Shown here: in pieces, positions 28,029 through 56,082 of the stretch
How the letters are laid out: each line of letters starts with the position of its first letter
Numbering within the stretch: position 1 is the first letter of the stretch
Assembly: GCA_012517475.1 (NCBI GenBank)
Contig: JAAYUV010000018.1
Span: forward strand, 1 to 58,550
From: Peptococcaceae bacterium
GTDB lineage: Bacteria > Bacillota > Desulfitobacteriia > Desulfitobacteriales > Syntrophobotulaceae
DNA: 58,550 nucleotides
Direction of reading: 5' to 3'
Program-made: the position numbers and the translations under genes
The notes under the pieces: model-generated
What the model was told of the DNA's origin: nothing
Database searches by the model: none
The model's input: only the letters and a program-made list of their open reading frames with translations

Positions 28029-28074
28029 CAACATGAAATAAGTGGTATAAGCTAGTATTGATTATTTATAGTTC

Positions 28075-53417: not shown

Positions 53418-54874
53418 TTAAAGATTAAGATACGGATATAAGGATGCTAAAATATTATCGCCTTCATATTGCAAAGAATTGTTTCCAGGCGCTACTTCAA
53501 AGTGAACATGAGGGCCATCGGCATTACCCAAAGCTCCTTGAGTGCCGACATATTGTGTTGCGGATACAGGGCTACCGGGACTTACTGCTTTATAAGACAT
53601 ATGCAAATAAGAATATGAACTATTTGACGAAGTTTGTACACAGAGTTGATGTGTCGAATGACCTGAATCAGGCGTTATCACTGTACCGCCAAGCATTGCG
53701 TAAATTGACGGATAACCTGCTGGAGAGAAATCTATCCCTTCATGAGCACCACCTTGTGAAGTAGAATAGGTTCCATAAAGATTTTTGCATATAAAAGCCT
53801 CATTAGTTTTATTGTATAGTCTGTTATACATATTTTTACATTGAGCAGACTGTTGTGTCGCAACAAAAAGATCTAAAGATTGGGAATTAACATGGAAATA
53901 ATCGTAGCCATATCCAGGAAAATAAACATAATAATATATTGAAGGGTCGCGATATGCAGTTATACTAAATTTTGTTTTGGCATTAAGTCCAATTTGTTGT
54001 GATTCATATTGGGCCTTGATCTGATCTAATTGTGCGCACGTTGTGCGCTTCATATATATTTCACAGAAATCATCGCTCCTGCGTTGCGATGTAAAACAAC
54101 CGACTAACCTCATGCGAAAGCCTCTGGGGGACAATAACATGTCGGTAAAGTCAGAATTAGACAGCTAGTGCTGTCGAGTGGCTTGTGAGTCAGGCCATAT
54201 ATGGTAAAGCCTGTGGGCTGCTTCCGGATCTATGGCTGAGTGACGCAAATTTAACATCAGCGTGAAGAAAGTGTTGGCCCGCTACGGAAGTTCAACCATT
54301 TTTCCTGGCTAAATGCGATTTGAGGGACCCGCTTGCCCGTGTCTGCTACATCTGCGGCAATTCGCACTTTCATGTCAGCATGTATATCACAGGAAAACGA
54401 AGAAGCTCGACAAGCCCTATTCACCGATTGTCACTGTCATTCTGTCCATCAACCGGCGTTAGATACCCTTATGCGAACATTGCTTTGCCAATGTCGAAGC
54501 TGACAGGTTTCAGCTTAATCAGTTAAACGGGGATAACTCATTTGGAATATGGAGAGCCGTATGCGGTGAAAGTCGCTCGTACGGTTCGGGAAGGGGCGGG
54601 TTACTTTGCTAATCCGCCTATTTCATTTCATATATTATTAGTGAACTCTTTTTGTCAGATAAACTATGCTGCTTGAGACAAGTCGGTAATGTATTTGTTC
54701 CAAGTTTGCGTAGTTAATTAATATAAGCGCTAAGAAATCAGCTAAAGTCGTAATAGCCACTCAAAATTGTAGATAAAACATCTGGCACCTGATCTGTCTC
54801 TAGAAAAGCATCTATGGCCAAGCTATACATAAAAACAGAAGAGACAGCAAAAACACACTGAATTCTTTTCTCAT
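53418..54874 (-). pseudogene. Secreted M23 metallopeptidase, split by a group II intron
   Basis: The C-terminal half (53418-54042) is a complete LytM/M23 domain: GAHEGIDFSPAG (HxxxD), HLMSYKAVS-type region and GPHVHFEV (HxH). The N-terminal part lies beyond the intron: ATG at 54874 after AGGAGTG, signal MRKEFSVFLLSLLFL, a frameshift, then IDAFLETDQVPDVLSTILSG. Deleting 54043-54626 exactly rejoins SLIIYE to TCAQLDQIKAQYE in one frame. Two in-frame stops (TGA, TAA) and the frameshift show decay. The intron is antisense and cannot be spliced from this gene's mRNA. The longer open frame at the 54140 end is intron sequence, not protein. Confidence 0.8.
54043..54626 (+). mobile_element. Group II intron, shortened copy 1
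   Basis: Begins GTGCGC (group II 5' end GTGYG), contains domain I-like sequence (ATGCGAAAGCC, GGTAAAGTC), and near the end domain V: GAGCCGTATGCGG, TGAAAGTCGC, TCGTACGGTTC, with the AGC triad. A domain VI stem follows (GGCGGGTTA...TAATCCGCC). The coding part is reduced to the end of the intron protein (INRR stop IPLCEHC). Ends were fixed by alignment with copy 2 and by restoration of the M23 frame. 584 bases; no full protein, so it cannot move on its own. Confidence 0.8.
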
Positions 54875-56006: not shown

Positions 56007-56082
56007 ACGGAAAGAAAAGGATTAGCTGTACTTTCGTCGAAAACAATATACGCCTATCGAAATGATAAGGAAGGAGCTCTTA

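Follow-up and report, generated by a model that had tools for sequence, protein, structure and literature searches.

Two decayed group II introns at a peptidase gene and a start-codon rule in the insertion sites of their family

The group II intron Ll.LtrB homes to a site in a relaxase gene and is spliced from there. Three target specificities of bacterial group II introns, namely homing sites, terminators and attC sites, were listed in a 2015 review (PMC4424553). The window analysed here, a stretch of 58,550 nucleotides that forms one contig (C33) of a 3.68-Mb, 115-contig genome of a Peptococcaceae bacterium, carries decayed remnants of a mobile group II intron, hereafter copies A and B, both of which lack complete domains I‒IV. 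By themselves, an inactive antisense intron and the decayed gene around it would be ordinary. Comparison with the intron family corrects the intron ends, and the target rule that emerges from this comparison explains the presence of copy B at the start of a gene on the strand of the M23 peptidase. In our interpretation, the two remnants are likely dead, internally deleted copies of a mobile intron family that normally homes antisense to gene starts, with copy A at an off-type site.

Copy A consists of the following parts.

54026‒54031, plus strand: IBS1 of copy A, CTAATT, the last six nucleotides of the 5′ exon, the same as the IBS1 of a Pelosinus copy
54032‒54626, plus strand: copy A, an internally deleted group II intron, 595 nt of a 2.36-kb element
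54032‒54238, plus strand: start of domain I, nt 1‒207 of the full-length element (blastn to a full-length relative, 90% identity)
54244‒54626, plus strand: remnant of the IEP C-terminus and 3′ ribozyme domains (comparison with the full-length relative)
54552‒54626, plus strand: domains V and VI, with an A as candidate branch point, 7 nt before the 3′ end (RF00029 and fold)

The first-pass annotation had recognized the remnant of a group II intron on the plus strand, and this reading holds, since Rfam RF00029 matches 54552‒54626 with 67.4 bits. The hairpins expected of domains V and VI form in these 75 nt (fold z = -4.94). The covariance model check proposed for domains V and VI also found a match in copy B (55355‒55429, 62.7 bits), where the 3′ AT is present, while the Rfam D1‒D4 families gave no match in copy A, copy B or their intact relatives. 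Copy A starts with GTGCG at 54032 (a GUGYG-type 5′ end) and closes with AT at 54626 (an AY-type 3′ end). About 40 other copies, whose flanks are unrelated, start with GTGCGCACGTTGTGCGCTTCAT, which corresponds to 54032 of the window; copies with unrelated flanks begin GTGCGCACG and finish ...CCTATTTCAT. When copies from this genome and related genomes are aligned together with their flanks, GTGCGCACGTTGTGCGCTTCATATATA is common to them and the divergence lies before it. In an order-level search, matches were obtained in 28 of 74 genomes, the best of which start at query base 1 (54032) or stop at base 595 (54626), and a pattern scan of GTDB contigs revealed identical ends in Desulfosporosinus, Sporomusa, Pelosinus, Desulfotruncus, Lucifera and Paradesulfitobacterium. 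Since the family copies share these ends despite their different flanks, copy A spans 54032‒54626, and both its boundaries and its family membership are directly supported.

These boundaries differ from those proposed earlier, in which the intron occupied 54043‒54626 and its exact removal rejoined SLIIYE to TCAQLDQ in frame on the minus strand, thereby fixing both ends. The 3′ end at 54626 is retained, but the true start lies 11 nt upstream, at 54032. GTGCG is also present at 54043, as a second GTGCG internal to the intron, and the frames would join if 585 nt were cut. The cut at 54043‒54626, however, removes 584 nt and gives ...SLIIYENVRTIRS... in one frame and two stops followed by YMKTCAQLDQ in the other; after removal of the true intron (54032‒54626), the two sides are still in different frames. 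Because both cuts leave the frames unjoined, the join fixes neither end, and the TCA of TCAQLDQ is the antisense of the first bases of the intron itself, not gene sequence. Moreover, GTGCGCACGTT (54032‒54042) occurs in other copies with differing flanks, and the first matching base in related genomes is 54032. The family comparison has already refuted the shorter intron with its in-frame join, to which we assign almost no probability.

Full-length relatives (L069‒L073) are 2355‒2362 nt long and encode an IEP of 590‒591 aa with RVT_1 and Intron_maturas2 domains, which is located at nt 497‒2269 in the 2362-nt relative. The closest solved protein to this IEP is LtrA, with an E-value of 2e-80 over residues 8‒577, and, as judged from its protein and its ends, the family is assigned to the LtrA-like (mitochondrial-like) class of group II introns. 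Searching the genome of the window with the intron revealed more 5′ and 3′ ends, many of which coincide with contig ends, as expected since the copies are nearly identical repeats. Intact IEP halves are likewise located at contig ends of this genome. Contigs C1, C17, C20, C66, C76, C109 and others end inside copies of the family. The intron is thus a cause of assembly breaks, and the copy number of the family is underestimated. One intron 5′ end was located in a viral contig, and a search for phage-borne relatives of the IEP found none. The genome of the window also contains a different RT/maturase gene of the group II intron type (453 aa, L018), which appears to be intact, at about 72.7‒73.7 kb of C96.

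Copy B, which is absent from the first-pass annotation, was inserted just upstream of the Shine-Dalgarno sequence of the same minus-strand gene.

54872‒54892, minus strand: initiation region struck by copy B, consisting of GAAAGGAG, a spacer and ATG (sequence and family offset rule)
54887‒54892, plus strand: IBS1 of copy B, CCTTTC, a perfect complement of the EBS1 loop GAAAGG found in the same genome
54893‒55429, plus strand: copy B, an internally deleted group II intron with a decayed 5′ splice site, TTACG instead of GTGCG (alignment to copy A and to the full-length relative)

Relative to the 2362-nt element, copy A retains nt 1‒207, a 47-nt piece of the IEP gene and nt 2054‒2362, whereas nt 208‒1861 and about 1909‒2050 are missing or unalignable; copy B retains about nt 11‒188 and 2038‒2362. 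In both copies, about 1.75‒1.8 kb of the full-length element is gone, including EBS1, most of domain I, domains II‒III and most of the IEP (RT) gene, of which only a C-terminal remnant is kept. The deletions are directly supported by these alignments, and since most of domain I, domains II‒III and the IEP are gone, copies A and B would be unable to splice even from a sense-strand transcript. One deletion has the same right breakpoint in both copies, close to a CGGCAG repeat. A shared-deletion origin was considered and is not supported, because each of the two is closer to an intact copy in the same genome than to the other; for the same reason, the common breakpoint could reflect either separate deletions at a short repeat or gene conversion.

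The flanks of other family copies, such as CTCCTTTT, CTCCTTTC and CCTCCTTCA, represent a reverse-complement Shine-Dalgarno sequence with CAT slightly further up. At 24 of 45 sites, a Shine-Dalgarno match of 5 nt or more was found together with a start codon whose open frame reads away from the intron, compared with 0.98% of 20,000 random positions. Merging similar flanks left 34 independent 5′ sites, for which background rates were drawn from the same loci. Counted on the very sites in which the rule was noticed, an antisense ATG or GTG lies 16‒18 nt from the junction at 27 of the 34 (background 7.9%, p = 5e-24), with three at offset 16, 14 at 17, 11 at 18 and no more than four at any other offset. 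A Shine-Dalgarno sequence plus an open gene is present at 19 of them (background 0.25%, p = 4e-41). The site in the viral contig, which alone is independent of the discovery of the rule, carries ATG at 17. The genes at these sites (Ddl, SpoVAD, CWB2, ABC, amidohydrolase, SDR, thiolase, MFS and CobO) are intact and unrelated to one another, and nine of the ten tested fall into recognized, unrelated Pfam families. The fixed distance to the start codon is thus directly supported by counts from a set that consists of survivors of selection and in which some sites share a genus, a bias lessened but not fully removed by flank merging and the viral site. Since the copies found are survivors, the pattern arises in part from selection against insertions in genes.

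Copy B obeys the start-codon rule. Its IBS1 overlaps the antisense Shine-Dalgarno sequence CTCCTTTC (54885‒54892), and the ATG at 54874‒54872 is located 18 nt from the insertion. Copy A lacks an antisense RTG at 16‒18 nt and sits inside a reading frame. Other sites are also used by some sub-lineages (Pelosinus, with EBS1 AATTAG), and the IBS1 of copy A is identical to that of the Pelosinus copy with this EBS1 loop, the EBS1 of copy A itself being deleted. A second recurrent target was observed in Desulfosporosinus, AGGAAATGAAAGAAAGATGTGGAA read antisense, with several sites lacking an open gene. Flanks of this type stand at the 5′ side of L073, L076, L079, L080, L081, L084, L085 and L090, and the readable copies there carry a matching EBS1 (AGGAAA). 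This target may belong to a repeated element.

The sequence preference is read at least in part by the intron RNA. A loop near nt 259, CCCAATAT[EBS1]TTGGG, is variable between copies and pairs with the last six exon bases of each copy. Pairing between EBS1 and its own IBS1 averages 5.65 of 6, compared with 4.66 after permutation (p = 5e-5, permutation, 17 copies), and when all of the first 460 nt were scanned with no region chosen in advance, nt 259 came out on top for both pairing and z. This EBS1-IBS1 covariation is directly supported, and the loop in the genome of the window, GAAAGG, is a Shine-Dalgarno mimic. A constant GGGGGA near nt 95 is a candidate EBS2 that could pair with a pyrimidine tract.

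The same data bear on an alternative account, in which ordinary decayed introns home by EBS1/IBS1 only and start-adjacent copies are seen because intergenic DNA tolerates insertion. Covariation alone accounts for part of the sequence preference, purifying selection removes in-gene insertions, and nesting in intergenic DNA has been described for bacterial introns (PMC8919778). Tolerance, however, cannot put the start codon in a 3-nt interval at 27 of 34 sites, and ATG or GTG at 16‒18 is kept even at sites without any gene. The distance to the start codon also stays constant across copies with different EBS1 sequences, an indication of a second reader. We therefore consider tolerance alone an improbable explanation and favor recognition of the antisense initiation region.

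From these sequence patterns, we infer the following route. In complex with the protein as an RNP, the intron RNA would pair its EBS1 loop GAAAGG with CCTTTC opposite the Shine-Dalgarno sequence of a gene, while a further element, probably the protein, would read the antisense start codon (CAT) about 18‒20 nt upstream. The intron RNA would then reverse-splice into the strand opposite the Shine-Dalgarno sequence, followed by target-primed reverse transcription. Because EBS1 and the CAT reader would bind the strand opposite the gene start, the intron comes to lie antisense, just outside the Shine-Dalgarno sequence of its target. Copy B seems to have arrived by this usual route, and copy A sits at an off-type site (IBS1 CTAATT) inside the M23 frame, which it probably split. 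The middle of both copies would have been lost later, and the gene would have decayed.

The gene itself is represented by three segments.

53418‒54031, minus strand: remaining part of the M23 peptidase (PF01551, intact homologues and motifs)
53418‒54140, minus strand: present open frame of 240 aa, about the first 36 residues of which are the antisense strand of copy A
54627‒54874, minus strand: probable N-terminal part of the split M23 gene, with leader, frame change, TGA and TAA (weak protein similarity)

That the intron lies antisense to a whole M23 domain was confirmed by the match to PF01551 (Peptidase_M23, E = 9e-15) on the minus strand, and the metal-binding motifs HxxxD (HEGID) and HxH (HVHFE) are intact. 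The antisense strand of copy A appears to provide the open frame with a new in-frame ATG along with the additional residues. As the first-pass annotation had stated, a hydrophobic leader resembling a signal peptide follows the ATG at 54874, which is preceded by a good Shine-Dalgarno sequence, and translation places a TGA, a TAA and a frame change between this ATG and the intron. Its statement that splicing could not rescue the gene is also correct, since copy A is antisense to the gene, besides having lost most of the ribozyme and the IEP.

Intact M23 homologues of 417‒473 aa are present in related genomes. The M23 part of the window aligns to their C-terminal half, and the comparison was marginal for the segment at 54627‒54880. 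A single-frame profile (HMM) search of this segment against the intact homologues gave a non-significant E = 0.098, and in a frameshift-tolerant alignment to the N-terminal part of the homologues, 34 of 1000 shuffles were as good. An uninterrupted allele was also sought: one same-genus genome contained no close homologue, and the closest intact proteins are 45‒49% identical. Since both comparisons are only marginal, we regard 54627‒54874 as the probable N-terminus of the split M23 protein. Copy B occupies the canonical position beside the Shine-Dalgarno sequence and ATG of 54874, like its relatives at real gene starts, which indirectly supports 54874 as the start of the M23 gene. The segment could instead be the remnant of another short gene, bracketed by copies A and B and brought to the M23 gene by intron recombination or deletion; this would fit the marginal similarity, the frames that fail to join, and a leader plus segment about 150 aa shorter than the N-terminal part of the homologues. 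Against this origin, which we consider rather unlikely, the segment and the M23 part are on the same strand, the leader peptide fits a secreted M23 protein, and the weak similarity beats that of most shuffles. An N-terminus of the M23 gene remains our preferred reading.

Other features were observed elsewhere in the window. Just beyond copy B (55549‒56006, minus strand), what looks by eye like one broken regulator gene consists of a LuxR-type DNA-binding fragment and a response-regulator-like fragment that overlaps it. Two proteins of 185 and 289 aa follow at 56062‒57491, the first of them sigma-factor-like, and by eye resemble a sigma/anti-sigma pair. Seven clustered tRNA genes occupy 7662‒8286, and a T-box leader (107.7 bits) is located at 28072‒28299.

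We regard the start-site habit as a new target specificity within a known intron class. We think it reasonably likely that an LtrA-class lineage across several Bacillota families represents a fourth target specificity, directed at antisense initiation regions by a Shine-Dalgarno-mimicking EBS1 and an extra start-codon reader. If so, a retroelement exploits a very common bacterial regulatory motif as a repeated landing site, and thousands of gene starts are potential, comparatively harmless homing sites, as insertion there leaves the Shine-Dalgarno and coding sequences of the gene intact. The family would also lend itself as a natural scaffold for directing insertions to positions upstream of genes. 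A search of the open-access literature, a scope outside which most subscription journals fall, yielded no report of targeting to Shine-Dalgarno sequences or translation starts.

Among described systems, the family resembles the TeI3/TeI4 introns of Thermosynechococcus elongatus in that families diverge by changing their EBS sequences and that internally deleted and ORF-less copies occur alongside full-length ones (PMC2882425). The sites occupied by TeI3/TeI4 comprise, among others, intergenic regions, IS elements and other introns, and the available part of that account reports no Shine-Dalgarno or start-codon rule (PMC2882425). With group IIC introns, the family shares the targeting of a motif class, not of one homing site, which provides many low-cost sites per genome, but its protein is LtrA-like and not of class C. 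Terminator or attC targeting of the group IIC kind was rejected, because the 40 nt that precede the junction show less structure than the background (-2.0 versus -5.2 kcal/mol on average) and thus form no terminator or attC hairpin. The resemblance to Ll.LtrB includes an IEP alignable to LtrA over nearly its full length, the GUGCG start, EBS1/IBS1-guided insertion and a C-terminal Cys/His-rich endonuclease-like region. In contrast to Ll.LtrB, the present multicopy family inserts at gene starts, in antisense orientation to its targets.
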